Under the pieces are notes generated by a model that saw only the letters and a list, made by a program, of their open reading frames with translations, did not search any database and was not told the origin of the DNA. From an uncultured Solirubrobacterales bacterium (GTDB lineage: Bacteria > Actinomycetota > Thermoleophilia > Solirubrobacterales > 70-9), in assembly GCA_903939845.1 (NCBI GenBank), contig CAJAIJ010000007.1, positions 1 through 64,000 on the forward strand: 64,000 bases of DNA, read 5' to 3'. A program made the position numbers and the translations under genes. Positions 16,780 to 41,592 of this stretch are shown here, piece after piece; positions within the stretch are counted from its first letter, which is position 1; each line of letters opens with the position of its first letter.

Positions 16780-17810
16780 TCGACGATGTACCAACCGCTC
16801 ATCCCGTTGTGCAGGTGAGAGAACACATGGCAGTGGTAGAGCCACCGCCCGGGGTTGTCCTCGGTGAACCTGACCCCGAACGAGTCTCCCGGCCCGAAGG
16901 TCTTGTTGTCGACGACGTTGCCTGCCGGCTCGGCCCATTTGTGGCCGTGCAGATGGAAGGTATGGAAGTTGTCGTCGACTCCGATCACGTGGATCTGGAC
17001 GTCGTCGCCGATGGTGGCCTGGAGGTTGGGGGTCACTCCCGTGTAGGCCCTGCCGTTCACGCAGGAGTAAGCGGTCCTCAGTCCGGTTGCCGGAGGGAGG
17101 AAGTCGTGGAAGGCGAGCACGTATTCCCGGTCCGGAAGGGGCTCGTCGGCCGTCCTGACGATGAGTCCGCCGAACAGGCCCTTGTAGATCGGAAGCGGAT
17201 CGAGCGGGCCGTGGTCATGGTAGAACCAGGAACCGGCCGTTCCCTCCGGGCACTCCCAGAGGTAGGTGACGGTCCGGCCACGCTGCACGAAGCCCCCGGG
17301 ATCGGTGTGAATGCCCTTGTAGGAGCCGTCCATCTCGTTCGAATAGAAGACTCCATGCGGATGCATGGTGACCGGAACCGGGCACTGGTTGCGGAAGTGG
17401 ACCACGAGGGTCTCTCCCTCGCGTGCCTCCAGGGTCGGACCGGGGATCGATGCCGGACCGAGCGGCTGCCCGAAGTTGGCCGAGTAGGCGCGGTAGGCAT
17501 ATGCCGTGAACTTCGTCGGCCCCTTCTTGACCTTCTGGGCCATCATCTCGTCGGTCTTGGTCGGCATGATGTCCCAGGGCGTCGGCTCGGCCTGGATCCA
17601 GTACTCGCGCCTGGTACCCGAAGTCGAGAACCTGGTCAGTCTCGGGTTGTCGCGGGAGGCGGCCACCTTCGGCGGGACGGGAACTCCTCCGGCCAGCTTC
17701 TTCATGTTCGCCTGTCGGTCCATGCGGACCTCCTGACCGGCGATCGTGCAGAGGAGCGCTCCGCCGGTCAGGCCGAGAAATCCTCTTCTGTCCATCGATT
17801 CGAAATCCAT
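16776..17810 (-). CDS. Multicopper oxidase, two-domain-sized, exported
   Basis: A 344 aa multicopper oxidase with all copper-binding motifs: HPHGVFYS (HxH), WFYHDHG (HxH), FHTFHLHGH (HxxHxH) and YHCHVFSHLHNGM (HCHxxxHxxxxM, type 1 plus T2/T3). The length is far below the roughly 500 aa three-domain laccases and nearer two-domain enzymes. The N-terminus MDRRGFLGLTGGALL looks like a Tat-type twin-arginine signal, as expected for a folded metalloenzyme. It is flanked on both sides by cupredoxin genes on the same strand, 4 nt from the upstream one. Substrate (phenols, Cu(I), Mn(II) or nitrite-like) cannot be told. Confidence 0.88.
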   Translation of the reverse strand: MDFESMDRRGFLGLTGGALLCTIAGQEVRMDRQANMKKLAGGVPVPPKVAASRDNPRLTRFSTSGTRREYWIQAEPTPWDIMPTKTDEMMAQKVKKGPTKFTAYAYRAYSANFGQPLGPASIPGPTLEAREGETLVVHFRNQCPVPVTMHPHGVFYSNEMDGSYKGIHTDPGGFVQRGRTVTYLWECPEGTAGSWFYHDHGPLDPLPIYKGLFGGLIVRTADEPLPDREYVLAFHDFLPPATGLRTAYSCVNGRAYTGVTPNLQATIGDDVQIHVIGVDDNFHTFHLHGHKWAEPAGNVVDNKTFGPGDSFGVRFTEDNPGRWLYHCHVFSHLHNGMSGWYIVE

Positions 17811-17814
17811 GTTT

Positions 17815-18369
17815 CTAGCCTCCGACCTCGACCGTCATCTCCATCAGGTGATGGAGTGAACAGGCGAAACGGTATGTGCCCGGAACCTCGAACCTCCTCT
17901 TGAACGTGTAGTTCACCGAAGGCGAGAGGGGCGTCTCGAAATCATAGGGAGAGACCCCTTTCGGTCCGCCCAGGAGAGTCACGTTGTGGGCGTCGACATT
18001 CTGGTTGCCCCAGAGCCAGAGCACCGATCCGCCCTTCGGAATTCCTACCTCGGTCGGGAAGAAGTACTTGTCCCTCACCAGGACCTCCTCGACCGGACCG
18101 GTCGGCGGGGTCACCGGGTTAGTAGAGGGCTGTCCGTATTTGCGGTTCACCTTCCGGACGCAGGCCTTCCTCTTCGAAACAGCATCGATCTTCCGGCACC
18201 TGGCCAGCGCCCGTGCCCGTGCCTTCTTCTGAGCCGGTCCGAGACTCCTCGTTGCCGACCCTGCCTCGGCCGGAGTGGCTCCGGCCGGGATCCCGGAGGA
18301 CGGCCAGAGCGATGGGGCCGCGACCAGCGCCACGGTGATCACCAGGGCTGTGGCGAGTGGCCGGTGCAC
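17815..18369 (-). CDS. Secreted plastocyanin-like cupredoxin with Lys/Arg-rich linker
   Basis: A 184 aa exported protein: signal peptide (LATALVITVALVAAPSL), then a basic two-Cys segment (AQKKARARALARC ... KACVRKVNRKY), a PTNPVTPPTGP linker and a cupredoxin domain. Copper ligands are His (DAHNVTLL), Cys, His and Met (FACSLHHLMEM, C-x2-H-x4-M), a complete type 1 set. It is a tandem paralogue of the next gene (identical SPYDFE and similar KRRFEVPGTY) and lies 4 nt from the oxidase start, so it likely passes electrons to or from it. Confidence 0.85.
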   Translation of the reverse strand: MHRPLATALVITVALVAAPSLWPSSGIPAGATPAEAGSATRSLGPAQKKARARALARCRKIDAVSKRKACVRKVNRKYGQPSTNPVTPPTGPVEEVLVRDKYFFPTEVGIPKGGSVLWLWGNQNVDAHNVTLLGGPKGVSPYDFETPLSPSVNYTFKRRFEVPGTYRFACSLHHLMEMTVEVGG

Positions 18370-18378
18370 GAAGCGGGC

Positions 18379-18933
18379 CTACTTCCGGGCGTTGACCTGC
18401 ATCTGCATCCCGGCGTGGAGGCTGCAGAAGAAGGTGTAGGTGCCGGCGACCTTGATCTGTCGCTTGAACTTGCTCCCGTCGTCATAGATGACCCTGGACT
18501 CGAAGTCGTAGGGCGACACGCCCCTCGGACCTTCGAGAAGGCTGACGTTGTGGCCCTCCCTGCTGTCTTCCTTCCAGACCCACTCGATCGCGTCGTTGAC
18601 CTCGACGTCGAGGATGCCGGGCGCGTAGTAGTTGTCCCAGACGTCGACCGTCCAGGTCCTGCCGACGGCCGGACCGCTGGGCGCGAACTTCTTGTTCACC
18701 TGCTTGATGCAGGCGTTTCGCTTCGCCTTGGACTTGATCTGCTTGCACTTGGCCATGGCCCTTGCCTTGGCCTTCTTCTGGGCCGGGGTGAGAGACCTCA
18801 ACTCGGTGCCGCCGACCGATCCCGAGAAAGAGGAAGCCGGCATGAAGAGCGCCACGCCGAGAATCGCGATCGAGGTGATCATCGCCGCCTTCAGTCGCGC
18901 TCCAGGCGCCCTATTTCTTCTGGTCATCTCCAT
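18379..18933 (-). CDS. Secreted plastocyanin-like cupredoxin with Lys-rich linker
   Basis: A 184 aa paralogue of the preceding gene, 9 nt upstream of it. Signal peptide MITSIAILGVALFMPAS; basic two-Cys segment AQKKAKARAMAKCK ... NACIKQVNKKF; cupredoxin domain with His (EGHNVSLLEG) and the Cys/His/Met cluster FFCSLHAGMQM. The Met start could be residue 1 or 3. It is the first gene of the four-gene copper cluster in transcription order. Confidence 0.85.
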   Translation of the reverse strand: MEMTRRNRAPGARLKAAMITSIAILGVALFMPASSFSGSVGGTELRSLTPAQKKAKARAMAKCKQIKSKAKRNACIKQVNKKFAPSGPAVGRTWTVDVWDNYYAPGILDVEVNDAIEWVWKEDSREGHNVSLLEGPRGVSPYDFESRVIYDDGSKFKRQIKVAGTYTFFCSLHAGMQMQVNARK

Positions 18934-24458: not shown

Positions 24459-24520
24459 CAGTGGCTCCTTTGTTCTCGTTGCTCGTGGTTTTCGGATACC
24501 GGGGCCGTCATTGAGGGAAG

Positions 24521-24552
24521 CGAGTTCCGACTCCGGTGGAAACTCGAGTTCC
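24521..24552. promoter_or_regulatory. Repeat CGAGTTCC x2 and palindrome AACTCGAGTT upstream of sod
   Basis: CGAGTTCC occurs at 24521 and 24545, the second overlapping the perfect palindrome AACTCGAGTT (24541-24550). It lies about 90 nt upstream of the sod start and 110 nt upstream of the divergent SGNH gene. A possible operator of either; no regulator is known. Confidence 0.35.
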
Positions 24553-24663
24553 AACTCTAAGGAAATCCCCCGGCATTCGTCGGGATTGGTGCCTGATCAC
24601 TGTTATCCTCGGCCCCGACGTGTTACGGAGAACGGGTCAGGGAGACACCGGGAGTTCGGGTCC

Positions 24664-27600
24664 GTGCTGATCGGACGGACCTCCGGCCGGCTGCGCCCGA
24701 TCCTGCTCTCCCGTCTGCCTGCGGTTCTGACCGCCGGTCTCCTCACCTCACTGATTCTCGTGGCTGTCGTGGCCCCTCTGTCGGAGGCCGCACCGGGGAC
24801 GCAGTCGGCCAGGCCGGGCCTTCCAAACCGGATCGCGGTGGTCGGTGACTCGATCTCGGCCGGGACCGGGACCGAGGGTCTCAACATCCTCGATCCGGAC
24901 CAGACCCATCCGAACAACTCCTGGTCGACCGGCACCAACAACAACTCGCTGTACCTTCGCCTGCTCGCAATCAACCCTTCCATCAACGGCAATCGCCAGA
25001 ACGCCTCCGACAACGGAAAGCAGATGACCGATGCCGATGACCAGGCGAACACGCTGAGTACCGGGACCGACCTGGTCACGATCCAGATGGGCGGGAACGA
25101 TCTCTGCAAGGACTCGGTAGGCCAGATGACCTCGGTTTCCACCTACCGCAACCAGTTCGTACAGTTCCTCAACGCGGTCCGAAACCGCATGCCGAACGCC
25201 CTGATCCTGGTCGCCTCGGTCCCTGACATCTTCAACCTCTGGTACGTCAGGGGTGCGCCGGGCTCGGTCAATGGCCGGGAGAGCTCCCGAGCGGGGACTG
25301 CCCGGACCTTCTGGGACAACATCTTCGGGGGCTTCGTCCCCTGTCGGTCCCTGATCACCAACCCGACCAGTACCTCGGCCTCGGACACCCTGAGGCGAAA
25401 CCAGGTCCGGCAGCGCAACATCGAGTTCAACTACGTCCTCGAGGAGGAGTGCGCCAAGGTCATCAGGTGCAGGTTCGACGACTGGGCGGCCTTCGACCTG
25501 AGCTCGAACCGGGACATTTCGACAGAGGCCAATCGCCAGAGGTACAACCGCTCCACCAACATCGCCGACTGGGGCAACTACGAGGGCATCGTGCAACCGC
25601 CCCAGTGGGGTTTCGTGGACGACGACGTCAGCACGGCCGACCACTTCCACCCGTCGAACTCGGGCCACCGGAAGCTGGCCGAAGGCGCCTGGGAGACCGG
25701 CTACGACTTCGACGACCGGACCTACCCCCAGCTCTCCTCGGCCACGCTCTCGCCCGCCGCGATGTCCAACGGGATCAGTCGCATCAAGCCGACGGTGACC
25801 GTCAACTGGTCGGACGCTGCAGGGATCAGGGGGGTCGAATACCGGGTCCGGACCGACTCCGACGGAGGGGGCGGATCCTGGTCGGAGGCCAGGAACACGG
25901 CCACGGTCTCGGTCCCGATGTCGGGCAACGGCGTCTCCTATCTGGAGAGTCGGGCATTCGACATGAATGGCAACCGCTCGGCCTCGACGATGACCAGGGT
26001 CGAATATGACCCGGCAGGGATTCCCAGCCTGATCCTTTCCGGTGTGCCTCCGCGAAACTCGAACCTGACCAACGCGACGATCCAGACCAGTATCGAGGCC
26101 GGCCTGACGCTCGAGTGCTCCCTGAACGGAGCGTCCTTCTCGGCCTGTCCGAACCCGATCGCCTTCCAGAACATGACCGAGGGCAACTACGACCTGCTGG
26201 TCAGGCAGACCGACGGTCAGGGCAACCGGAGCGCGGCCACCTCGGCCTCCTGGACGATCAACCTCAGCGCACCCCCGGCACCGATCCTCAGTGGCATCCC
26301 GGCGGCGATCACCAATGCCCGGTCGGCCTCAGTGGCGATCTCGAGCACACCCGGCCATATCGTCGAGTGCAGCTACAACGAGGGGGCCTTTCAGGAATGC
26401 GCCTCGCCCTGGAACCTCGGGCCCCTCGCCCCGGGTGAGCACCGGATCGCAGTAAGGGAAAAAGACCTGGCTGGCAACATCGGAGCGGTGACCTCGAGAT
26501 CGTGGGTGGTCGATATCGATCCTCCCGGTATCGCACAGATCACCAACGGCCCGCCCGCCGTGACCAACCGGGACAACCCGACCTTCGAGTTCACCGGTGA
26601 GGACTCGGCCGCCTTCGAGTGCCGGCTGGACCGGGGCAGCACCACGGGGTCCTGGCAGGCCTGCACGAGCCCCTGGACGGTCTCGAACGCGACCACCAAC
26701 GGCTTCCAGTACGTATTCAGGGTTCGCCAGACCGACGAGGCCGGCAACAAGAGCATCGTTGAGGCCCAACAGACCTGGCGTCTGGACAGGACATCGCCGG
26801 TTGCACCGCAGGCTTCCGGTGCCCCAGACGGTCTGGTGCCCACCAATCAGGCGACACTCGCCTTCCAGGTCACCGGCAACGAGACCGGGTCCAGTTTCGA
26901 GTGCTCGACCAACGAGTCGGCCTGGGCTGTCTGTCAGTCGCCGCTCGAGCTGACCGACCTGCCCCAGGGTCCCAATTCCTTCTCGGTCAGACAGGTCGAC
27001 TGGGCCGGCAACCAGGGGCCCGCAACGTCTTTCTCCTGGCAGGTCAAGTCCGTCACCGATTCACCACTGATCACCACGGCGCCCGCAGCCCAGACCAACG
27101 CCCGGGATGCCTCGATCACCTTCATCGGCGAGCCGCTCGGTGAGTTCGCATGCTCCCTCGACGGCGGGCCATTCACTCTCTGCTCGAGCCCCTGGACCAC
27201 ATCCGGGCTGCCGGATGGCGAGCACACCATGCGAGTCAGGCAGACCGATGCGCTCGGGACGGCCAGCACGGTCGCTTTCGTGACCTGGGAGGTCGATGGC
27301 ACCCCGCCCGCTGCCCCGACTGTGCCAACGAAGCCGGGTGCCGCGACCAATGTCGCATCCCAGACGATCACCTTCTCTGGTGAGTCCGGCGGAACGTTCT
27401 CCTGCCGGTTCGGCGGCGGTGAGTGGACTTCCTGCGCTTCGCCATTTGCAACCGGCTCCCTGACGGACGGCAACCACCGGTTCGAGGTCAGGCAGACCGA
27501 TGGCGCAGGCAACACCGGCCCGGCGACGGTGGCCGAGTGGCAGCTGAAGACCACGAAGCCGGAGCCGCCAACGGTGAGCGGTGCCCCTACCGGGACCGTC

Positions 27601-28071
27601 CGCTCGAAGGTCGCGACCATGACCGTGAACGGTGAGGCCGGTGCCAGGATCGAGTGTCGCCTGAACGGTGCGACCTGGGCATCCTGCCCCTCCCCGATGT
27701 CGGTCACCGGTCTGGCCGAGGGGACCAACCGGATGGAGGTCCGACAGGTCGATCTGGCTGGCAACGTGAGCGACATCGTCTCGGCTGTCTGGGCCGTGGA
27801 CACGATCGGACCGAAGCTGAAGGGACAGGTCACGGCGTCCCGATCGAAGAAGGCCACCGTGATCCGATCCGGCTTCGAAGCCTCGGCCGGACGGCCGGCG
27901 CGGGCCGAGTACTCGACGGCGAGCAAATCACCTCCGACCGCCCCGGGGCCTGCCTCCTCCCGATCACTGGCGTGGGCGCCCTCGATGACTGTCAAGGGCT
28001 CCATGAAGGTGACCTGGCTGAGGGTCTTCGATCCGGTCGGAAACGCCTCACCCTGGTATCCGGTCCGGTAG
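24664..28071 (+). CDS. Large secreted SGNH/GDSL hydrolase with Ig-like repeats
   Basis: A 1135 aa exported protein. After a signal peptide (SRLPAVLTAGLLTSLILVAV), an SGNH hydrolase domain spans about residues 45-350, with VVGDSISAGTG (catalytic Ser), MGGNDLC (Asn) and DHFHPSNSGH (Asp/His). A bridging domain follows, then seven tandem beta-domains of about 84 aa, each with one Cys pair (such as FACSLDGGPFTLCSSPW) and a closing VRQTD.AGN motif. It would act outside the cell on an ester (lipid, polysaccharide acetyl or similar). GTG at 24664 gives the signal peptide; the ORF track adds 51 non-coding residues. No sortase or membrane anchor is visible at the C-terminus. Confidence 0.88.
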   Translation: MLIGRTSGRLRPILLSRLPAVLTAGLLTSLILVAVVAPLSEAAPGTQSARPGLPNRIAVVGDSISAGTGTEGLNILDPDQTHPNNSWSTGTNNNSLYLRLLAINPSINGNRQNASDNGKQMTDADDQANTLSTGTDLVTIQMGGNDLCKDSVGQMTSVSTYRNQFVQFLNAVRNRMPNALILVASVPDIFNLWYVRGAPGSVNGRESSRAGTARTFWDNIFGGFVPCRSLITNPTSTSASDTLRRNQVRQRNIEFNYVLEEECAKVIRCRFDDWAAFDLSSNRDISTEANRQRYNRSTNIADWGNYEGIVQPPQWGFVDDDVSTADHFHPSNSGHRKLAEGAWETGYDFDDRTYPQLSSATLSPAAMSNGISRIKPTVTVNWSDAAGIRGVEYRVRTDSDGGGGSWSEARNTATVSVPMSGNGVSYLESRAFDMNGNRSASTMTRVEYDPAGIPSLILSGVPPRNSNLTNATIQTSIEAGLTLECSLNGASFSACPNPIAFQNMTEGNYDLLVRQTDGQGNRSAATSASWTINLSAPPAPILSGIPAAITNARSASVAISSTPGHIVECSYNEGAFQECASPWNLGPLAPGEHRIAVREKDLAGNIGAVTSRSWVVDIDPPGIAQITNGPPAVTNRDNPTFEFTGEDSAAFECRLDRGSTTGSWQACTSPWTVSNATTNGFQYVFRVRQTDEAGNKSIVEAQQTWRLDRTSPVAPQASGAPDGLVPTNQATLAFQVTGNETGSSFECSTNESAWAVCQSPLELTDLPQGPNSFSVRQVDWAGNQGPATSFSWQVKSVTDSPLITTAPAAQTNARDASITFIGEPLGEFACSLDGGPFTLCSSPWTTSGLPDGEHTMRVRQTDALGTASTVAFVTWEVDGTPPAAPTVPTKPGAATNVASQTITFSGESGGTFSCRFGGGEWTSCASPFATGSLTDGNHRFEVRQTDGAGNTGPATVAEWQLKTTKPEPPTVSGAPTGTVRSKVATMTVNGEAGARIECRLNGATWASCPSPMSVTGLAEGTNRMEVRQVDLAGNVSDIVSAVWAVDTIGPKLKGQVTASRSKKATVIRSGFEASAGRPARAEYSTASKSPPTAPGPASSRSLAWAPSMTVKGSMKVTWLRVFDPVGNASPWYPVR
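26020..27830 (+). repeat. Seven tandem Cys-paired Ig-like repeats within the SGNH gene
   Basis: The first Cys of each repeat falls near 26115, 26367, 26622, 26902, 27151, 27403 and 27655, a spacing of about 250-280 nt (83-93 aa). The protein repeats are clearly related (E/S-C-x(7-12)-C-x-(S/N)-P), but the DNA has diverged, so the expansion is old. Confidence 0.75.
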
Positions 28072-28194: not shown

Positions 28195-29277
28195 ATGAAG
28201 GTCCTCTGTGCATCCGACTCGCCGACCTGGCAGCTGCTTTTGCAGAGGTCGGTCGAGGCGCTCGGGCACGAACCGACCCTGGCCTCGGACGGAGACGAGG
28301 CCTGGGACCGGATCCTCACCGACGAAGAGATCGATGCCTGCATCACCGACCGCCAGATGCCGGGACTGAGCGGAGACGAGCTGGTGGCCCGGATCAGGAC
28401 CGAACTAGGGAATCGCTACGTCTACACGGTCCTCCTGACCGCTCAGGACAGCTCTGAGGAAGTGATCGACGGCATGGAGGGTGGGGCCGACGACTACCTG
28501 ATCAAACCCCTCGATCAGGTGGCACTCGCGACCCGTCTGATCGCGGCCGAACGGGTGACCGGACTGCACCGGACGATCGCCGAGCAGCAGGAAGAAATCG
28601 AGCGTCTGTACGGCAAGCTCAAGGATGCCTTCAAGCGGTTCGTGCCGGAATCGGTCGCCGAACAGATCATCACTCGATCCGATGAGGGCGTGCGCCTCGG
28701 TGGGGTCTCCCGGACCGCGACCGTCATGTTCACCGACCTCAGGGGCTTCACCCAGTTCTCCGAGCACCAGGAACCGGAGAAGGTCATCGACGTCGTCAAT
28801 CGTTACCTCGGCGAGATGTCCGAGGCGATCCTGAACGAAGAGGGGACCATCGTCGCCTACATGGGCGACGGGATCATGGCTGTCTTCGGGGCCCCGATCG
28901 AGCAGGAGGACCACGCCGACCGGGCGCTCAGGGCAGCAAGGGCGATGCTCGACACCCACCTGCCGAGGTTCGGCGAGTGGATGAAGGAACAGGGCTACGG
29001 GGAGGGGTTCCGGATGGGGATCGGGCTGAACTCCGGAGGGGTGGTCTCGGGCAACGTCGGATCCGAGAAGCGTCTGGAATACACGGCCCTCGGGGACACG
29101 ACCAACACCGCAGCGAGGCTCGAGGGAATGACCAAGGGCACCGCACATCAGCTCTACTGCTCCGAGACGACCAGAGAGATGCTCCAGGATCCTCCCCCGG
29201 ATCTGGTCTTCGTCGACGAAGTCGACATCCGGGGCCGCGACCAGCCGCTCGGGGTCTGGTCGCTCGACGGGGATTGA
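28195..29277 (+). CDS. Response regulator with class III nucleotide cyclase output
   Basis: A 360 aa protein: receiver domain (residues 1-115; phospho-acceptor D52 in ITDRQMPG, T82, K104 in YLIKP), a helical linker ([20 protein letters not shown]), then a class III cyclase domain. Metal-binding Asp residues are D181 ([13 protein letters not shown]) and D225 ([12 protein letters not shown]); the transition-state pair is N304 and R308 ([10 protein letters not shown]). The purine-specifying Lys is replaced by Ala221 and the Asp by Thr297, so ATP versus GTP use is not certain. It starts the chemosensory gene run and is the natural phosphorylation target of the CheA downstream, as no CheY is present. 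Product: cAMP (more likely) or cGMP. Confidence 0.88.
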
Positions 29278-29311: not shown

Positions 29312-31306
29312 ATGTTCAGACCGGGCGACCCAACCCCGGAGGGGGCGAGCGAAGAACAGGAGGCCGAACCCGGCGCACCGCGTCGCAGCTGGCTGCTTGC
29401 CTCATCCGGCCGCCTGCCGGCGCTGTTGGTCGCACTGGCCGTCATCCCGGCCGCGGTGATCGCTCTCATCTCCTGGAACCAGAGCCGGATGCTGCTGGAG
29501 AGGGGAGCAGGTGACAGCCTGGCCAACACGGCATCCTCGCTGGTCGGATACACCGAAGCATCCTTCGAGAACTTCCTCAAGGAGACAGAAGCGGTCTCGC
29601 AATACCCGGAGATCAGGGCGATGAATCCGACCAGATCAACTGCCCTCCTGACCAACGAGGTCGAGGCGTTCTCCCCCCTCTACCGTCAGGCGCTCCTGGC
29701 AGACCCCCGGGGAAGGGTGATCGCCGCTGCAACGAGGCCACCAGACGTCCGTGAAGAGATAGCTCTGTCTGATTTCCGCGGGGTCGATGTTCGGGGGGAG
29801 GACTGGTTCCGGGATGCTCTCGAGGGATTCGACGGCAGCCGTGCAAAGGCCAACCTCGAAACGGTCGAGTACCGGCCGATCATCGGGAAGGTCGAGGGCT
29901 CCGGTTCGAAACCGCCGGCCCCGGTGGTCTCGATCGCCGTCCTCGAAGGGCCGTCCGGCGACCGTCGAGTGACGGGAGTCCTCGCGCTGTTTCCCAACTG
30001 GCCGGTGCTCGCCGTGGAGTTCTCGGAGGACGTCTCCGAGCAGGCCCGCCGTGCCGGCAAAGAGGGGGTCGCGGGGCTGCTCGTCGATCGCAAGGGCCGC
30101 ACCCTGGCCGGCCCCGACGGAACGGTCGCACTCGACACCGACTTCAGCAAGGACGGCGTGATCCAGAAGGCCTTCGAGGAAAAGACGGCCGGATGGGTGA
30201 AGTACTACGACGACCCGAACGACGGCGGCTGGCTCGGTGGCGAGACGATCGGGGCCTACGACACCTTCAGCCAGAGCTTCATCGATCAGGGCATCGACTG
30301 GGCCTGGATTATCGGTCAGGAGGAAAAGGATGCCCTTGCCGACACAAAGGGGCTCCGGACCAATCTGATCCTGCTGACCCTGGCGATCGCGATTGCGGCA
30401 GGGCTGATCGCACTCCTCGTCGGCAGGGGCCTGGCCAGCCGTGCCGGGCGGCTGCGCTCCAGTGCCCGGGAAGTAGAGGAGGGTGCCGTCTCGCTGAAGG
30501 GAAGCGCCGAGAAGGGTCGGGGTCGGGCCCAAAGGACGGCCGAGCTCGCCTCGGACCAGGTCCTGGGACTCGAGGACATGCGAAGGCGCGTCGAGGACAT
30601 GCGGGAGACCGGGCTCAGGATCGGCGACAGCGCCAAGCTGGTCGCCGAACAGGCCGGTCGGGCAGCCGCAGCCGGAGAAGAGGGCCGGACGGCAGCGATC
30701 GAGGTAGACAGGTCGATGGCCGAAATCGACGAAAGGGTCAGGACCCTGGCCTCGGAGATCGGTGCCCTGACCCGCCAGACGGACCAGATCGGAGAGATCA
30801 TCGCGACCGTTTCGAGCATCGCCGACCAGTCGAATCTGCTGGCCTTCAACGCGACCATCGAGGCGGCCAAGGCCGGTGAGCACGGGGCAGGCTTCAGCGT
30901 CGTGGCAGAAGAGGTCCGGACCCTTGCCGAGCAGTCGAAACGGGCGACCGCCCAGATCCGTTCGATCCTGAGCGAGATTGATCGTGCCACCCAGGAGGCC
31001 CAGAGGTCTGCGGTCGAAGGCATCGAGGCGGTCGAATCCGGCAGAGAGCGTGCCGAGAGTGCCGCCCGCACGATCGAACAGCTGGCAGAGGCGAATCAGG
31101 AGGCCGAGAAGACGACCTCTGAGATCGCGGGCCTTGCTCCGGCCCAGCAGGAGGAAAGCGCGAGGGTCATCTCCGCGGCCGAGAAGTCACTGGAGAGGGC
31201 TACCAAGGTCCGGTCCGAGGCCGAGGAATCGGCCCACTCGACCGCGGAGCTAGATCGCCTCGCCGAACGTCTCCGGGAGCTTTCCTCGACCCTGACCGGT
31301 GGGTAG
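29312..31306 (+). CDS. Methyl-accepting chemotaxis-type receptor
   Basis: A 664 aa chemoreceptor. An N-terminal cytoplasmic segment precedes membrane helix 1 ([21 protein letters not shown], near residue 34), followed by an extracytoplasmic sensor of about 290 residues of dCache-like shape, membrane helix 2 ([21 protein letters not shown]) and a long coiled-coil signalling domain. The hairpin tip reads [20 protein letters not shown] and [20 protein letters not shown], recognisable as the MCP tip. HAMP is poorly conserved. Ligand unknown. No CheR or CheB gene is in the window, so adaptation by methylation may be absent or encoded elsewhere. It shares one base (TAGTG) with the next gene. Confidence 0.9.
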
Positions 31307-31734
31307 TGGAACTCGACGAAGTCCAGGTCGGCGACCTGATCGAACTTTCCCCGGGCGGCCGGGCGTTCAGGCAGTCCGACCTGATCCACATCGTCAGTGA
31401 CCCCTCGATCGCACCGCTGGTCGGTGCCGGTGAAGCCTGGGTCGGACTCGCGAACCTCTCGGGAAACCTGATCCCGGTCGCAGACCTCGGAATCCTCGAT
31501 TCGGGGAGGCCGGGCGAGGGGAAAACGATGCTCGCGATCAGGGCCGACGGGGTCTCCTTCGGCCTGCTCTGCGAAGGGGTGCTCCGGACCTGCGCCTCGC
31601 CACCGAACGATGCGCTTGCCGACGAGCCGCTGCCTGACGACCCTGCCTGGCTGCTCGCTTCACCTCCGGGAGAGCCGCGACTGATCGAACCTCGGCTCCT
31701 GCTCGAAGATCCCAGGCTGGGCCCGATCAGGTGA
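31306..31734 (+). CDS. cheW: CheW-like coupling protein
   Basis: A 142 aa CheW-domain protein linking receptor to kinase. It has the typical mid-domain NLSGNLIPVADLGIL, corresponding to the N-x-R-G-x-x-x-P-V-x-D-L region; the R is replaced by S. GTG at 31306 overlaps the MCP stop, and its own stop overlaps the CheA start (GTGA), so the three are tightly coupled. Confidence 0.8.
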   Translation: MELDEVQVGDLIELSPGGRAFRQSDLIHIVSDPSIAPLVGAGEAWVGLANLSGNLIPVADLGILDSGRPGEGKTMLAIRADGVSFGLLCEGVLRTCASPPNDALADEPLPDDPAWLLASPPGEPRLIEPRLLLEDPRLGPIR

Positions 31735-33821
31735 CCCGAGCGTTCAGACCTGATGACGAGCTGAGGAGGGAGCTCCTGCAGCTGTTCGCCGCCGAATCGC
31801 GGGATGAGGTCGAGGTGATCTCCAGCGGGCTGGTGGCGCTGGAGTCCGATGCCGCAGGTGCGATCGGGGCCGGCAGGACCGACGAGATGATGAGGGCGGC
31901 ACACAGCCTCAAGGGAGGGGCCCGGGCGGTCGAACTCGAGTCGGTAGATCGGCTGGCGCACGCCCTCGAGGGGCTTCTCAAGGCGGCCGGTGACCGGGGC
32001 GCCTTCGACGGCGAGACGGTCGACCTCGCCTACCGTGCCCTGGATGGAATCGAAGCGATAATCGCGGCCGCCACCGGTGGTCCTCCGGCCGAAGTCAACG
32101 TCACGGGCCTCACCGACGAGCTCCAGACAGCCATCACCGGCCTGCCGGGAGAAAGGCCGGCTCCGACCGAACCTTCGCCCCGCTCGACTGCCCCTGCTCC
32201 CGCACCGGCGCCCGAAGCCCTTCCCGAGCCGACCGGGCCCTCTCCCCTCGGCCAGCCCGATGCCACCGTCAGGGTCAGGGTTTCGAAACTCGACGGCCTG
32301 ATGGCGGCCGTCAGGGAGCTCGAGGCCGCCCGGGTCGGGGTAGAGCACGCGACCGGCATTCTCACCGAGCGGGCCGAGGCCGACGACCTCAAGGCGAGGG
32401 AATACGACGTTCGCGCGGGGAACATAAGAGAGACGACTGCCGCCCCTCTGACCCGGCTCGAGAGGGCCGCTCGCGAGGTCGCGGGAGAGGTCTCCGAAGC
32501 CCGGACCGTCCCCCTTTCGCTGGCATTCGACCCGCTCCCGAGGACGGTTCGTGACCTTGGGCGCGACCTCGGACGGGAGGTCGAGCTAACGACCTCGGGC
32601 GGCGAGGTGGACGTCGACCGGGCCGTGATGGAGGTCCTGAGGCCCGCCTTCGTCCACGTGATCAGAAACGCGATCGACCACGGGATCGAGTCGCCTGCCG
32701 CACGAGCAGCAGGAGGCAAGGACGAAAAGGGACGGGTGACGGTCACGGGCAGAACATCGGCGGGACTGCTCGAGATCGAGGTGGCAGACGACGGCGCAGG
32801 AATCGACGCCGATGCCATCCGTCGCTCTGCCATCTCCAGGGAGCTGATCACGGCCGAAGAGGCCGACGCCCTTCCCTACGCGGAGTTGATCGAGTTCGTG
32901 ACGAGGCCTGGATTCAGTACTCGGGACAAGGTGACCGAGATCTCGGGACGGGGAGTCGGACTCGACGCAGTCAACGAGGGGCTCGGCTCGATTCAGGGCA
33001 CCCTCGGGATCACCTCGATCCCCGGATCGGGCTCGAAGGTCACCATGACGGTTCCCCTTGCGATCGCCGCCACTGAGGTGATCGTGGCCGAGCTCGGAGG
33101 CCTGCCGATCGGGATATCTCTGAGCGATGCAGCCCGGATAGTGGCGCTCGAAGGCCCCTCGGACGAGGCGATCGAGGTCGATGGTGCTCCGGTCCCCTTC
33201 TGCTCGGACACGACCCTCGAGGCTCTCGCTCCTCACGGTCGTGGCGAAGCGACCTGTGCGATCGCCGTCGAGGTGGGAGGTCGACGGATCGCTCTGCCTG
33301 TGGAGCGGCTCCGCACCGTCCAGAGACTCTCGACCATGCCACTTCCCGAACCCCTGCCAAGGGTCAGCCTGATCAGGTCCGCTGCGATTCTCCCGGACGG
33401 AGACGTGCTCAGGGTTATCGAGGTCCGGACCCTGATCGAGGATCTCCCTCCCCCACCCGTAGTCCTGATCGCCGACGACTCGGCCGCCTGGCTGGAGAGA
33501 GCGAGACGCCATCTGGCGAACCACGGCTGGCGGGTCGAGACGGCCCCCGACGGTCGAGTCGCCCTCGCGATGCTCGGGGAAGGGAATTTCGACGCCCTCC
33601 TGACCGATGTCGAGATGCCGGGGCACGATGGGATCGAGCTCACCGACATGGTCAGGAAGGACTCCGAACTGGCCGACATCCGGGTTGTCGTCTGGTCAGC
33701 CTCTGCCGAAGACGCCGGGCCGGCTGCGCTGGCTGCAGGTGCCGACGCCTTCCTGATCAAGGAACCCGGGGCCGAGGATGACGCCGCAGCGGCCCTCAGG
33801 CCGGACGATCCGGAGGACTGA
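31731..33821 (+). CDS. cheA: Hybrid CheA histidine kinase with C-terminal receiver
   Basis: A 696 aa chemosensory kinase. P1/Hpt domain with phospho-His in AAHSLKGGARAVEL (H58); a Pro/Ala linker; dimerisation region; ATPase with HVIRNAIDHGIES (N box), DDGAGID (G1) and SGRGVGLDAV (G2) and GSGSKVTMTVPLAIA; a CheW-like regulatory domain; and a C-terminal receiver with the phospho-Asp in ALLTDVEMPGHDG. No P2 domain is obvious. The receiver may be a phosphate sink or an intermediate. No CheY, CheB or CheR lies nearby; the receiver-cyclase at 28195 is the likely output. The 3' end overlaps the convergent patatin gene by 26 nt. Confidence 0.92.
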   Translation: MTRAFRPDDELRRELLQLFAAESRDEVEVISSGLVALESDAAGAIGAGRTDEMMRAAHSLKGGARAVELESVDRLAHALEGLLKAAGDRGAFDGETVDLAYRALDGIEAIIAAATGGPPAEVNVTGLTDELQTAITGLPGERPAPTEPSPRSTAPAPAPAPEALPEPTGPSPLGQPDATVRVRVSKLDGLMAAVRELEAARVGVEHATGILTERAEADDLKAREYDVRAGNIRETTAAPLTRLERAAREVAGEVSEARTVPLSLAFDPLPRTVRDLGRDLGREVELTTSGGEVDVDRAVMEVLRPAFVHVIRNAIDHGIESPAARAAGGKDEKGRVTVTGRTSAGLLEIEVADDGAGIDADAIRRSAISRELITAEEADALPYAELIEFVTRPGFSTRDKVTEISGRGVGLDAVNEGLGSIQGTLGITSIPGSGSKVTMTVPLAIAATEVIVAELGGLPIGISLSDAARIVALEGPSDEAIEVDGAPVPFCSDTTLEALAPHGRGEATCAIAVEVGGRRIALPVERLRTVQRLSTMPLPEPLPRVSLIRSAAILPDGDVLRVIEVRTLIEDLPPPPVVLIADDSAAWLERARRHLANHGWRVETAPDGRVALAMLGEGNFDALLTDVEMPGHDGIELTDMVRKDSELADIRVVVWSASAEDAGPAALAAGADAFLIKEPGAEDDAAAALRPDDPED

Positions 33822-35526
33822 CCAGGTCCCGGACCCGTTCCAGGGCGGCCTCCCCGGCCGCCCGCCCGATCTCGATCGCACGATCGAAGTCCCCGAACGC
33901 GAGCATCTTCAGCTCCGCCACCTCGGGTTCGATCACCAGATCGGCCCTTCCGGTTGCGGTCTCGCCGGCTGCGGCCGAGCCCAGCATCACGGAACGCATC
34001 AAGGTCTCCCCGATGGCCGGCAGGGTCGGCAGGCCGTCGGGGTCGGTCTCGGCCCGGAACTTCCCTCCGACCTCGACCGCCACTACAGGCCCCTCGACCA
34101 TGTCGGCCATAACGTCGACCGGCAGGTTCCTGATCAGGCCGCCGTCTACCAGGAGCCTGCCTTCGGAGCGACCCGGCGGCAAGAAGGCCGGAATCCGGGC
34201 CGTATTCATCGCCGCCTCGGCCACCGGCCCGGTCCTCTGGACGACCATCTCGGCCCTGACCATGTCTGCCGCGATCGTGAACAGGTCGACCGGAAGGGTC
34301 TCGATCGCCCGATCTCCAAAGATCCTGTCGAGAACCCGCTCGGCCCCTTCGGTGCGGGCCATGGCACTCCTGGGAGGGAGCTGGTAGCGATGTCTGACCC
34401 TGCCGCTGAAGACGGCCTTCAGGGCCCTCCGCCGCGACGGGGCATCGAGTCCTGCCGCGAATGCCGATGCCGCGACCCCGCCCATGCTGGTGCCACCGAT
34501 CCGGTCGATCGCGATCCCGTTCTCCTCGAACACTTCGATCAGGCCGAGATGGGCGAACCCCCTCGCTCCGCCACCGCCGAGGACGAGCCCCAGGGAAGAG
34601 CCGGTGAGCCTCCGGGCGGTCCGGGCGAGGTCTGCTTCACGCTCGGCACCCGCACGGATCCTGTGGCGAGCCCGGGGCTTCAGCCTCTCGATCCAGGCCA
34701 TCGCGATCCCGGGTGGATGATCGGCACCGGCCAGGACGAGGTCGCACCCCTTGAGCCTCGGCATCTCCTTGCCGGGAGGAGGCCTCCGGGGCGGGGCGAC
34801 ACAGACCAGGCGATCGGCCTGGCGAACGCAGAACTTCCGCCACTCCCCCTCGTTTCGGTCGGCGACGAGCATCACCCGTTCGTGCCGGCGCTCCGACTCG
34901 TCGAGCAGGTGACCCCACGAAATCGGATCGCCGGACTCGGCAGTGGAGGGATCGAGGACCGTCACGCCCCCGAGGTCGGCGAAGGCCCTCCTGACGCCAT
35001 CGGCCAGGACGGCGACGTCCATGCCGTCGAGGAGCGGCACGACCGCGAAGGTCGAGGCTTCGGGAAGATCGTCGGGGAGGCCTCCACTGGCCTGTAGCTG
35101 ACGGCCGAGTGCCGAAACCAGGGCGCTGGTGAAACTCGGCACCGTGGTCATCAGCTCCCGGAAGTCTTCGAACGTGAGCCTGAGAAGGCTCGAGTCCCGA
35201 CTCGCCCTGACCGAGGCCGAACGCACGTCGCCCGTGACCAGCGCGAGCTCACCGACGGTTGCGCCCGGACCGAGGACCCGGAGGACCTCAATCCCCTGGT
35301 CGTCCAGACCGGACTCCGGCCCGTCGCCCCGGACCACCTCGAGCCTCCCGGTCTCGACCAGGTAGAGGGCGTCGCCGGGATCGCCCTTCCTCATGAGCCA
35401 GTCTCCCGACTCGATCCGGACCGGTTCGAGCCGGCCGAGGATCAGTTCACGGGCATCGTCAGGGAGGATCCCGAAGAGCGGGCTGTGGGCCAGAATGGCC
35501 TCGATCTGTCTTCCGTTGCCTTCCAA
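33796..35526 (-). CDS. Patatin-like phospholipase with N-terminal cNMP-binding domain
   Basis: A 576 aa protein joining a cyclic-nucleotide-binding domain (about residues 12-130) to a patatin hydrolase domain (about 300-500). The phosphate-binding cassette VGELALVTGDVRSASVRA keeps the Glu and Arg that contact cNMP. The hydrolase has GGGGARGFAHLG (oxyanion hole), GTSMGG (nucleophilic Ser) and DGGLIRNLPVD (catalytic Asp). The arrangement parallels neuropathy-target-esterase-like lipases. TTG 35526 is chosen because TAGACT lies 8 nt upstream; the ORF track start is deep inside the sulfotransferase gene on the other strand. It is divergent from that gene and convergent with CheA. Confidence 0.88.
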   Translation of the reverse strand: MEGNGRQIEAILAHSPLFGILPDDARELILGRLEPVRIESGDWLMRKGDPGDALYLVETGRLEVVRGDGPESGLDDQGIEVLRVLGPGATVGELALVTGDVRSASVRASRDSSLLRLTFEDFRELMTTVPSFTSALVSALGRQLQASGGLPDDLPEASTFAVVPLLDGMDVAVLADGVRRAFADLGGVTVLDPSTAESGDPISWGHLLDESERRHERVMLVADRNEGEWRKFCVRQADRLVCVAPPRRPPPGKEMPRLKGCDLVLAGADHPPGIAMAWIERLKPRARHRIRAGAEREADLARTARRLTGSSLGLVLGGGGARGFAHLGLIEVFEENGIAIDRIGGTSMGGVAASAFAAGLDAPSRRRALKAVFSGRVRHRYQLPPRSAMARTEGAERVLDRIFGDRAIETLPVDLFTIAADMVRAEMVVQRTGPVAEAAMNTARIPAFLPPGRSEGRLLVDGGLIRNLPVDVMADMVEGPVVAVEVGGKFRAETDPDGLPTLPAIGETLMRSVMLGSAAAGETATGRADLVIEPEVAELKMLAFGDFDRAIEIGRAAGEAALERVRDLVSPPDRPA

Positions 35527-35634: not shown

Positions 35635-36462
35635 ATGAAACCGGATGAAAAAAGACCTGACGCCTGGCTCTGCTCCTACCCCAAGAGCGGCCGCACCTGG
35701 ATGCGCTTCGCTCTCTCGAATCTGATCGAGGAGACCTTCGACCTCGGGGTCGACATCGATACGGCCAACATGTTCGGCCTCATTCCCAACGATGACGGGC
35801 CCGACCACACCAGGCCCTGGAAGACGATCGACAACTTCTCTTACGGGGACCACCAGGGCCTGCCGCTCATCGCGATGAGTCACCTTCCCCGGGACGACCG
35901 ATTCGCCTCGATCCCGGTCGTCCTCCTGATCAGGAACCCGGCTGCCTCGCTCGTGTCCCGGTTCTTCCACATGTCCAGACACGCCGGACAGTTCGAGGGC
36001 GGTCTGCCCGAGTTCGCCCGCGACGAGTTCTACGGGGTGCCCGGAATCGTCCATTACTTCTCCTCATGGGAGCCCCATCTCGACGATCCGAACGTCGAGG
36101 TCGTCTCCTACGAGGAGCTGAGGTCCGAGCCGCTCGAACCCTTTGGGAGAATCGCCCGTCAGCTTGGCATCCAGGCCGATGATGCAGCGCTCGAGAAGGC
36201 TCTGGACGCAGCCCGGGTGGACAGGATGAGGGCCGTGGAGAAGAAGTCCGGCGTCGGCCAGCCGAACGAGTACGACCGCAACGACCCCGGAGCCCTGAGG
36301 GTCAGGAAGGCGAGCGCCACCGGATGGCGGGACGAGATCGACGAGGAGACGCTCGAGTTCCTGATCCGTTCCCTCGAGGAGGATCGGGCCGCGCGCTCGC
36401 TGCTCGAGCGCTTTGGACTGATGCCCGACAGCCCTGCGGTCGAACCCTGTCCCAACCGGTAG
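35635..36462 (+). CDS. PAPS-dependent sulfotransferase
   Basis: A 275 aa cytosolic sulfotransferase (Sulfotransfer_1 type). The 5'-phosphosulfate loop is CSYPKSGRTWMRF and the 3'-phosphate site is LLIRNPAASLVSRFFH; VRKASATGWRDEID is the C-terminal adenine/PAPS motif (RKGxxGxWK-like). It transfers sulfate from PAPS to a hydroxyl or amine on an unknown acceptor. It is a paralogue of the gene at 38318, which starts with the same WLCSYPKSGRTWMRF. The stop is 11 nt before the acyltransferase start, so they are cotranscribed. An upstream TTG at 35584 is an alternative start. Confidence 0.87.
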   Translation: MKPDEKRPDAWLCSYPKSGRTWMRFALSNLIEETFDLGVDIDTANMFGLIPNDDGPDHTRPWKTIDNFSYGDHQGLPLIAMSHLPRDDRFASIPVVLLIRNPAASLVSRFFHMSRHAGQFEGGLPEFARDEFYGVPGIVHYFSSWEPHLDDPNVEVVSYEELRSEPLEPFGRIARQLGIQADDAALEKALDAARVDRMRAVEKKSGVGQPNEYDRNDPGALRVRKASATGWRDEIDEETLEFLIRSLEEDRAARSLLERFGLMPDSPAVEPCPNR

Positions 36463-36465
36463 ATT
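36460..36465 (+). promoter_or_regulatory. -10-like hexamer TAGATT upstream of acyltransferase gene
   Basis: TAGATT, overlapping the sulfotransferase stop, lies 7 nt before ATG 36473; possible internal leaderless promoter. Confidence 0.3.
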
Positions 36466-36472
36466 GCGGCGA

Positions 36473-38302
36473 ATGAGCGAGCAAGGCCAGCAGACGATCG
36501 AGAGGCTCGGCCCCGCCGATGCGTCGAACCTGGGCGGCGGGATCAACCATCTGGTGATCGGCCTCTGCCGCCTCGATCGCCGCTCCGATGGATCCATCCC
36601 CTCCTTCGACGAAGTCCGTGACCTCGTCTCGGAGAGGCTTGAGAGATCGCCTCGATTCCGCCAGTTTCCCTACCTCCCCGAAGGAGCATCGGGTCTACCC
36701 GTTTGGGCGGACGCACAGGACTTCGACATCGACGATCACCTCATCGAGGCGACGGTCGATGGTCCGGTGGACCGGCATGAGCTCGACGTCCTGCTTGCCG
36801 AATGGATGACGACGCCGATCGACGAGTCGAAGCCGCTCTGGATGGTGCAGTACGTCCCGACCACGGAGGGAACGGCCCTGATGGTCAAGTCGAGCCACGC
36901 CCTCGCCGACGGCCTCGGCTCGATCGCACTCTTCGCGATGCTCCTCTTCGACATCTCGGAGGACTCGGAGCGAAGCGAGGCGTCCCCCTGGACGTCAGGC
37001 CCCCTTCCCGACGCCGCCGACCTGAAGGCCGCCCACGGGCCGGGCGACTCCGAGTCCGGGGATGCCGCCGAGACGCCTCTCCAGAAGGCCATCTCGCTCG
37101 TCTCGAGTCCGACGGCCCTGAGGGAGACCGCATCGAATACCGCCGACATCAGCGGCTACCTGATCCGGAAGGCGAGGACCGAGGTTCCTGCGAGTCCGCT
37201 GGCCGATGGTTCCGGCGCTCCGCTCGAACTCCACACGCTCGAATACCCGCTCGACCGCCTCAAGCTCCTCGGGCGGGGCCTCGGTACCGGGGCGACGATG
37301 AACGACGTGATCCTCGGACTGACCGCAGGTGGGTTGAGGCAGTGGTGCATCGAAAACGGCCATCAACTCGACGACCTCATGGTCAGGGTCCCGGTGGCAC
37401 TGAAGAAGGAGCGCAAGGAGGGCGAGGGCGGCAACCCCGGCGTCGCTCCGATGATCGTGCCCCTCCCCATGGCCGAGGAGGACCCGGTCCGGCGGGTCCG
37501 ACTCCTGCGGGAGCGGACCGAGGCGATCAAGGCCGCAGGTGAGCCGGCGCTGAACCTCGCCGTCAGGAACCTCTCGAGGGAGGCCCCGGGAGCCGTCGGT
37601 GACCGGATGCTGAAGCTGATCACCGGCCGTGGCCAGGCGAACATCGCGATCCACAACCTTCCCGGGCCGCCCCTGAAGCTCTTCGTGCTCGGAGCGCCGA
37701 CCGCCTCTTTCCACAGCTTCACCCTGCCCCGCCCGGGCCTCGCGATCCATCTCAACGTGGTCTCGGTGGGAGGTGTCGTATCGATTGGTCTCGCGGCAGA
37801 CCAGGGCGTCGTCGGAGAACTCGACTCATTCGTGCGTGGGGTCGAGGAGACCGAGAAGGCCCTTGCCGGCGGAGTCTCGAAGCTGGACCTCGTCAGGCGC
37901 GTTCCGATGCTCGCACCGCTCGACGACGAAATGCAGGAAGACCTCGCTTCACGGATGGTCGAGCGAAAGGTGGAGGCAGGCGAGACGCTCGTCGCAGAAG
38001 GCGATCCGGCCGAGGAGTTCTTCCTGATCGTCGAAGGAACGTTCGACACCCTGATTCAGGGTGATCCCGTCCGGACGATGCAGCCCGGTGACTCGTTCGG
38101 AGAGATCGGTCTCCTGAGGGATTCCGAGAGAACGGCGACCGTGGTGGCACGCGACGACGGAGCCGTGATGGTCCTCGGCCGCGACGACTTCCTGGGGGCC
38201 GTCGCGGCGGATCCTTCGAGCATGGTCGTGGCGGACGCGATCATCAACACCCGCCTCGGAGACCTCGGTCGCTACCAGGTCTTCGGCGACCCGGAAGCCT
38301 GA
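36473..38302 (+). CDS. WS/DGAT acyltransferase fused to a cNMP-binding domain
   Basis: A 609 aa fusion. Residues about 1-450 are a wax-ester synthase/diacylglycerol acyltransferase: SSHALADGLGS carries the catalytic HxxxDG (H142, D146; the first His of the usual HHxxxDG is Ser), ATMNDVILGLTAGGLRQW is the PLN/ND motif, and NLPGPPLKLFVLG is typical. Residues about 475-590 form a cyclic-nucleotide-binding domain with FGEIGLLRDSERTATVVA, keeping the Glu and Arg of the phosphate cassette. This would place acyl-CoA transfer to alcohol or diacylglycerol under cNMP control. ATG 36473 is chosen over TTG 36464. It lies between two sulfotransferases. Confidence 0.9.
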   Translation: MSEQGQQTIERLGPADASNLGGGINHLVIGLCRLDRRSDGSIPSFDEVRDLVSERLERSPRFRQFPYLPEGASGLPVWADAQDFDIDDHLIEATVDGPVDRHELDVLLAEWMTTPIDESKPLWMVQYVPTTEGTALMVKSSHALADGLGSIALFAMLLFDISEDSERSEASPWTSGPLPDAADLKAAHGPGDSESGDAAETPLQKAISLVSSPTALRETASNTADISGYLIRKARTEVPASPLADGSGAPLELHTLEYPLDRLKLLGRGLGTGATMNDVILGLTAGGLRQWCIENGHQLDDLMVRVPVALKKERKEGEGGNPGVAPMIVPLPMAEEDPVRRVRLLRERTEAIKAAGEPALNLAVRNLSREAPGAVGDRMLKLITGRGQANIAIHNLPGPPLKLFVLGAPTASFHSFTLPRPGLAIHLNVVSVGGVVSIGLAADQGVVGELDSFVRGVEETEKALAGGVSKLDLVRRVPMLAPLDDEMQEDLASRMVERKVEAGETLVAEGDPAEEFFLIVEGTFDTLIQGDPVRTMQPGDSFGEIGLLRDSERTATVVARDDGAVMVLGRDDFLGAVAADPSSMVVADAIINTRLGDLGRYQVFGDPEA

Positions 38303-38317
38303 TCCTCCGGGGGGATC

Positions 38318-39118
38318 GTGGCCGACTCGCCGACCGCCTGGCTCTGTTCCTACCCGAAGAGCGGCAGGACCTGGATGAGGTTCGCCCTGGTCGACCTGCT
38401 CGACCGCAGGCACGACCTCGGCGGGGAGTTCGACATGGAAAACATGTTCGGCCTTGTCCCGAACAGCGACGGCGAAGGAAAGACGCAGCCGTGGAAGACG
38501 CCGGAGAACTACCGGTTCCGCGACCGGTCCGACGTCCCGTTCGTCATTGCGAGCCACCTGAGATGGGAGCCGGCCTTCTCAGAGCTTCCAAACGTCTTCC
38601 TGGTTCGTAACCCGGGTGACGTGGTCGTCTCCCGCTTCCACCACATGCGCCGCCACGAAGGGAAGTTCTCGGGGTCGCTCGCCGAGTTCGTCGGTGACCG
38701 GGAATGGGGGCTTCCGGACCTTCTCGGCTACCTCGAGTCCTGGCAGCCGCACATCGGTGATCCCGGCACGACCGTCGTCACCTACGAGGCCCTGAAGGCC
38801 GATCCGGTCACGTCCTTCGGGCGACTTGTCGGGGGACTCGGCATCGAGGCTTCCCGAGAGGAACTCGAGACAGCTCTGGAGTCGGCCTCGGTGGATCGGA
38901 TGCGAAAGGTCGAGGCCAGCAGCGGAGTTGGTCAGCCGCAGGCCTACGACTTCGACGACCCCGACGCAAGGCGAGTCCGAAAGGCCAAGGTGGGAAGCTG
39001 GCGCGAGGAGATGGACGACGACACGATCGCGATGATGCTCGCCGAGATCGAGACCTCACCCGCAGTTCGGGAGATGCTCGAGAAACTGGGCATCATGCCC
39101 GGGCCCGAAGCCGTCTGA
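38318..39118 (+). CDS. PAPS-dependent sulfotransferase
   Basis: A 266 aa paralogue of the enzyme at 35635. The PAPS sites are WLCSYPKSGRTWMRF, LVRNPGDVVVSRFHH and VRKAKVGSWREEMD. GTG 38318 follows a GGGGGGAT ribosome site, 15 nt after the acyltransferase stop. Two homologous sulfotransferases bracketing a neutral-lipid acyltransferase suggest sulfation of a lipid or lipid head group; this is an inference. Convergent with the MFS gene, 5 nt between stops. Confidence 0.87.
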   Translation: MADSPTAWLCSYPKSGRTWMRFALVDLLDRRHDLGGEFDMENMFGLVPNSDGEGKTQPWKTPENYRFRDRSDVPFVIASHLRWEPAFSELPNVFLVRNPGDVVVSRFHHMRRHEGKFSGSLAEFVGDREWGLPDLLGYLESWQPHIGDPGTTVVTYEALKADPVTSFGRLVGGLGIEASREELETALESASVDRMRKVEASSGVGQPQAYDFDDPDARRVRKAKVGSWREEMDDDTIAMMLAEIETSPAVREMLEKLGIMPGPEAV

Positions 39119-41496: not shown

Positions 41497-41505
41497 ACTC
41501 GATAA

Positions 41506-41579
41506 TCGGGGCGCCCGGATTTGAACCGGGGACCTCACCGTCCCGAACGGTGCGCGCTACCAAGCTGCGCCACGCCCCG
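41506..41579 (-). tRNA. tRNA-Pro (anticodon CGG)
   Basis: Reading the minus strand: acceptor CGGGGCG/CGCCCCG (7 bp), D stem GCGC/GCGC, anticodon stem CACCG/CGGTG with loop TTCGGGA, T stem CCCGG/CCGGG with loop TTCAAAT. It folds as a canonical 74-nt cloverleaf including the discriminator A. The anticodon is CGG, decoding CCG. No CCA is encoded after the discriminator. Confidence 0.95.
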
Positions 41580-41592
41580 AGAGATCCGGACC

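Follow-up and report, generated by a model that had tools for sequence, protein, structure and literature searches.

Chemosensory systems chiefly serve motility, development or signalling by the second messenger cyclic di-GMP (c-di-GMP). Response regulators that join a receiver domain (REC) to a mononucleotidyl cyclase were already listed in 2012 within chemosensory clusters assigned to alternative cellular functions (ACF; PMC3447774), and the Pil-Chp system of Pseudomonas aeruginosa raises cyclic AMP (cAMP) via CyaB, with the transcription factor Vfr as its target (PMC12632253). Here, we describe a 64,000-nucleotide stretch of DNA from an uncultured Solirubrobacterales bacterium (contig CAJAIJ010000007.1, positions 1 to 64,000; the window), in which a receiver-cyclase gene heads a chemosensory cluster and is followed by genes for two lipid enzymes with cyclic mononucleotide (cNMP)-binding domains. 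We propose, with about even confidence, that these genes form a portable cassette leading from receptor to enzyme: a chemosensory array would control a cyclic mononucleotide and, through it, a cNMP-gated phospholipase resembling neuropathy target esterase (NTE) and a wax ester synthase/diacylglycerol acyltransferase (WS/DGAT). REC-cyclases in non-motility chemosensory clusters were known already; the built-in lipid effectors appear to be the new element.

A receiver-cyclase is the first gene of a CheA cluster

The chemosensory part of the locus consists of four genes on one strand that nearly abut or overlap one another:

28195..29277, + strand: receiver-cyclase, a 360-residue open reading frame (PF00072 and PF00211), first gene of the cluster that continues with a methyl-accepting chemotaxis protein (MCP), CheW and CheA
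28201-28536 (residues 3-114), + strand: REC of the receiver-cyclase (PF00072, E 2.8e-17), followed by a linker
28714-29247 (residues 174-351), + strand: class III cyclase domain (PF00211, E 1.4e-25, 90.4 bits against a cut-off of 21.9)
29312..31306, + strand: chemoreceptor (MCP; PF00015, E 6.3e-30) with a dCache-like sensor (PF02743, below its cut-off)
30695-31183, + strand: MCP signalling domain
31306..31734, + strand: CheW-like coupling protein (PF01584, 22.5 bits, slightly below the cut-off of 23.5; syntenic in the cassettes that reach it)
31731..33821, + strand: hybrid CheA with histidine phosphotransfer, ATPase, CheW-like and C-terminal receiver domains (PF01627, PF02518, PF01584 and PF00072); phospho-His, ATP-site and receiver motifs conserved

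Orthologues of the receiver-cyclase are 81-85% identical, and as synonymous changes are in large excess (dN/dS 0.09-0.13 over 357-358 codons), this is a maintained gene and not a chance reading frame. A first-pass annotation of the window had described the protein as a complete receiver on a class III cyclase with both metal-binding Asp residues and the Asn/Arg transition-state pair; the open reading frame, its two Pfam matches and all of the residues named were present. In the receiver, D52, T82 and K104 are kept in 9/9 orthologues, as is D8, the equivalent of the metal-binding acid D13 of CheY. The acidic pocket is S/T7-D8 in all nine copies, with the second acid replaced by Ser/Thr, and because one of the two usual acids is missing, the word "complete" was slightly generous. 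In the cyclase domain, an alignment of 32 relatives shows no variation at D181, D225, T297 or the N304/R308 pair. Alignment with Synechocystis Cya2 places Ala221 where a purine-specifying Lys (adenylate cyclases) or Glu (guanylate cyclases) would stand. This residue is Ser in one orthologue, while Ala is nearly invariant in related cyclases with a CHASE2 sensor, and we rejected A221 as a peculiarity of this protein. The first-pass suggestion that Ala221 and Thr297 leave either cAMP or cyclic GMP (cGMP) as the product was therefore a fair one, although it concerns a trait of the whole subfamily.

To place the cluster in its genome, the assembly was searched (1.9 Mb, 59 contigs, about 92% complete). 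One CheA, one free-standing CheW and one MCP were found, all in this cluster, and no CheR. Nine receivers were found: besides those of CheA and the cyclase, these comprise five OmpR-type proteins, one NarL-type protein and a free-standing receiver that adjoins a PAS histidine kinase away from the che genes. Neither CheB nor a che-linked CheY is among the nine, so that the lack of further Che partners noted earlier for the window extends genome-wide, and no CheY/CheB set was found elsewhere; flagellar genes were looked for in the window only. By gene order, synteny in two families and the lack of other CheA partners, the cyclase as a dedicated output of this CheA is well supported. Its earlier description as the apparent sole output needs qualifying, given CheA's own receiver and the free-standing receiver elsewhere.

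Two adjoining lipid enzymes carry cNMP-binding domains

The next two conserved genes encode a patatin-type phospholipase and an acyltransferase:

33796..35526, - strand: cNMP-binding, NTE P-loop-like and patatin phospholipase protein (PF00027 and PF01734 over cut-off; PF24179 weak)
35146-35421, - strand: cNMP-binding domain of the patatin protein (PF00027)
36464..38302, + strand: WS/DGAT acyltransferase with a C-terminal cNMP-binding domain (PF03007, PF06974 and PF00027)
37964-38206, + strand: cNMP-binding domain of the WS/DGAT (PF00027)

The patatin gene, whose start is uncertain (TTG at 35526 or 35556), converges on cheA with a 26-base overlap. Its patatin domain scored 94.7 bits, and the NTE P-loop-like match was weak (21.2 bits, below the cut-off of 27). 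The GGGGxRG (oxyanion), GxSMG and DGG motifs are conserved in the copies of this protein, as suits a patatin with a Ser-Asp dyad, together with the Glu and Arg of the cNMP pocket. An AlphaFold model of the patatin protein (mean pLDDT 71), which served for fold identity only, matched PlpD and cNMP-binding domains; a model of the acyltransferase (mean pLDDT 49) was discarded. Both WS/DGAT domains of the latter exceed their Pfam cut-offs, the TIGR02946 score is 216.9 bits against a cut-off of 310, and the active-site motif reads SHALADG.

The PF00027 matches of the two effectors (65.5 and 68 bits) are well above the cut-off of 27.5, and the phosphate-cassette Glu and Arg, in the pattern G-E...R-[ST]-A, occur in all copies of both domains. 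Three cNMP-binding proteins were found in the genome, namely these two enzymes and one Crp-like regulator.

Two families share the same gene order

The order cyclase, MCP, CheW, CheA, patatin (-) and DGAT (+) is intact in six genomes (that of the window, G007, G008, G107, G113 and G114), and copies cut by contig ends in G016, G101 and G109 and on L074 and L080 fit the same order. As this order recurs in other genomes, the idea of a one-off arrangement was rejected. The cassette spans two families (f1 and f2) with varying flanking genes, and in each copy long enough to tell, the cluster opens with the cyclase. A fusion of DGAT with a cNMP-binding domain is present in 9 of 232 genomes of the order, all nine with a close patatin homologue and CheA adjoining. 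Among 37 genomes of the family that were searched, CheA occurs in four, exactly those with the cassette.

Pairwise identities of the cassette genes co-vary, with r mostly 0.7-0.95. For the cyclase against the MCP and the two effectors r is 0.54-0.67, lower in part because the cyclase varies little. Its catalytic domain is the most conserved part of the cassette (88% mean identity) and the receptor sensor is among the least conserved (41% identity), the pattern that a constant output served by differing inputs should give.

Most records with orthologues are titled as metagenome-assembled genomes of Solirubrobacterales or Solirubrobacteraceae, and several sample names look like lakes or reservoirs. 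Two records (L075 and L101) are titled "Bifidobacterium breve", probably wrongly because their genes group with Solirubrobacterales. G114 also holds a second DGAT-cNMP paralogue (L160:10052-11866, G114:C6; 63% identical) on a contig stretch with no che genes; it contains one in-frame TGA and may for that reason be decaying or misassembled.

The receiver probably replaced a CHASE2 sensor

CHASE2 was detected by Pfam in 24/24 non-REC relatives in the cyclase alignment. In a maximum-likelihood tree, the REC cyclases form one clade (100/100) inside a supported group (96/90) that includes ten non-REC cyclases, which points to one swap of sensor for receiver. A single CHASE2-to-receiver replacement is the simplest account, with the exact sister group not settled by the tree.

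Of 39 non-REC loci, 12 encode a cNMP-binding protein no more than 4 kb from the cyclase, compared with 0 of 15 control stretches (256 kb in total); because the controls were few and non-random, this enrichment is indicative but not conclusive. The neighbours include fusions of major facilitator superfamily (MFS) proteins to cNMP-binding domains and, at L097, a cNMP-patatin gene that converges directly on the cyclase gene.

Near CHASE2 cyclases, MFS transporters that end in a cNMP-binding domain were seen at L045, L054, L087, L093 and L094, with an MFS-cNMP-NTE_Ploop-patatin fusion at L087. Their hosts are soil and other Solirubrobacterales, and these proteins look like directly gated transporters.

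Accessory and surrounding genes

Two sulfotransferase genes accompany the lipid enzymes:

35635..36462, + strand: accessory sulfotransferase (PF00685), start inferred from homologue alignment
38318..39118, + strand: second accessory sulfotransferase (PF00685), which varies between cassettes

The first is missing from this position in f2 cassettes, and the pair was rejected as part of the cassette core since both vary between cassettes. Directly upstream of the cyclase, 24511-28071 (+ strand) encodes a 1186-residue GDSL lipase with Big_13 Ig-like repeats; the CHASE2 cyclases at L044 and L045 likewise have similar repeat sequence next to them. A sigma-70 promoter scan of the region gave no match. 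Elsewhere in the window are a copper cluster (16776-18933, - strand) of consecutive genes for a multicopper oxidase and two plastocyanin-like proteins, and a tRNA-Pro (CGG) gene (41505-41580, - strand) about 2.4 kb past the second sulfotransferase, a possible integration landmark.

A proposed pathway from receptor to lipid enzymes

The first-pass annotation had left aside the likely targets: with two conserved, cNMP-binding lipid enzymes encoded right after cheA, an otherwise orphan cyclase becomes part of a plausible complete pathway. The reading that we favour, by a modest degree, is a self-contained non-motility pathway in which a dCache receptor, CheA and the receiver-cyclase would produce cAMP (less likely cGMP) to control both lipid enzymes directly. 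What was observed is which genes are present, how their domains are arranged, which residues they keep, their synteny and their co-occurrence. From these we infer the transfer of phosphate, the activation of the cyclase, its product, the binding of and gating by cNMP, and the lipid substrates, as follows. The dCache-type chemoreceptor and CheW would set the activity of the hybrid CheA, which would phosphorylate the receiver of the receiver-cyclase as well as its own. The latter is probably a phosphate sink or feedback point, given that no CheR or CheB was found. Phosphorylation would favour the active cyclase dimer via the linker, and the resulting cAMP (or, less likely, cGMP) could bind the cNMP-binding domains of the patatin and DGAT proteins, relieving or imposing inhibition. 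The NTE-like patatin is predicted to free acyl chains from (lyso)phospholipids and the WS/DGAT to load acyl chains into triacylglycerol or wax ester, so that the two enzymes may jointly shift acyl chains from membrane to storage lipid, or may work in opposition. By this route, the breakdown and storage of lipid may come under the direct control of a signal from outside.

Several observations weigh against this pathway. Gene orientation puts the patatin and DGAT genes outside the transcription unit of the cyclase, whose identities show no more than a moderate correlation with those of both effectors (r 0.54-0.58). The receiver has a single acidic-pocket Asp where two are usual, and A221 leaves the product undecided between cAMP and cGMP. 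In the DGAT, which scores below the TIGR02946 cut-off, the first His of HHxxxDG is replaced by Ser (Gly in one copy, GHALADG), with HxxxDG kept. Three other class III cyclase-like genes and the Crp-like protein could share the nucleotide pool, and human NTE has similar domains for which cNMP binding had not been shown (PMC6995513).

An unlikely alternative, though one with some support, is that CheA drives the cyclase and the product acts through the Crp-like protein on gene expression, with the cNMP domains of the lipid enzymes being structural or otherwise responsive. Besides the presence of this regulator, related cNMP domains are widespread in the family, and the NTE-like architecture is not a proven binder of cNMP (PMC6995513, PMC9319352). 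Yet the pocket Glu and Arg are kept in every copy of both fused domains, and the pairing of the cyclase with fused effectors holds across two families and is seen again at CHASE2 loci. No Crp site of the E. coli type was found in the window, although this consensus may not suit the present Crp.

The same wiring with cGMP as the messenger is similarly doubtful. In its favour, the closest solved relative, the CHASE2-type Cya2, is a natural guanylate cyclase whose specificity switches at the position matching 221 (E488K; PMC5995499). In addition, the specificity-site Lys is replaced by Ala, and the DGAT cNMP domain carries Arg-Thr-Ala and has cGMP-dependent kinases among its best solved matches. 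Arg-Ser/Thr is usual in bacterial cAMP receptors too, however, and Thr at the position of T297 suits adenine better. Since residue 297 is Thr and no Glu stands at 221, we tentatively favour cAMP over cGMP.

It is improbable that the cyclase is not phosphorylated by this CheA, with another kinase driving the cyclase or CheA acting mainly on itself. The C-terminal receiver of CheA (residues 578-679) is a second phosphoacceptor with conserved Asp, Ser and Lys, and further histidine kinases are encoded in the genome; but the cyclase heads the cluster in every sufficiently long cassette, and no other che genes were found to use the cyclase or serve this CheA. A catalytically dead cyclase that only relays phosphorylation or binds nucleotide is very improbable, as loss of the purine-specifying Lys is outweighed by invariant metal, transition-state and partner residues in 32 sequences and by the high conservation of the domain.

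Comparison with known systems

If the proposed pathway is correct, chemosensory systems would gain a new class of output, a cassette that acts via cAMP or cGMP from receptor to lipid enzymes. It would also offer a compact, genetically linked model for the question of whether NTE-type cNMP-binding domains bind or respond to cyclic nucleotides, direct binding having not been shown for animal NTE (PMC6995513, PMC9319352). A partial literature search found no precedent for a WS/DGAT-cNMP fusion or a conserved cassette with cNMP-binding lipid enzymes, nor a paper dedicated to response regulators that are linked to CheA and contain an adenylate cyclase domain, beyond the ACF mention in PMC3447774.

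Among described systems, the ACF pathways, including Wsp (WspE-WspR), share an MCP-CheW-CheA(REC) cluster with a multidomain regulator that makes a second messenger. A multidomain response regulator is the output of the CheA cluster here as well, namely the REC-cyclase, whereas the CheR (often CheR-TPR) and CheB of ACF systems were not found in the genome; for this reason we call the cluster ACF-like and not a member of ACF. The cassette further differs in its cNMP-binding lipid effectors and in its predicted cyclic mononucleotide, where the output of Wsp is the diguanylate cyclase WspR and c-di-GMP. Pil-Chp would resemble the cassette in coupling a chemosensory system to a rise in cAMP. In that system PilG switches on CyaB, a separate cyclase, and the target is Vfr; in the cassette, receiver and cyclase are parts of one protein and the adjoining genes encode enzymes.

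The CHASE2 class III cyclases (Synechocystis Cya2 and those of Solirubrobacterales) belong to the same catalytic subfamily, with Ala221 and 55-68% identity in Solirubrobacterales, where they often adjoin cNMP-binding proteins; they have a CHASE2 sensor with transmembrane segments, and no receiver or CheA cluster. NTE-type phospholipases (PNPLA6/7) have cNMP-binding, NTE P-loop-like and patatin domains in the same order as the cassette protein, but three cNMP-binding domains instead of one, and in the cassette a cyclase gene is part of the conserved locus. Bacterial WS/DGAT enzymes, with 7nxg and 6chj as relatives, share PF03007, PF06974 and HxxxDG with the cassette enzyme, which differs in having Ser-His or Gly-His for His-His and in carrying a C-terminal cNMP-binding domain.
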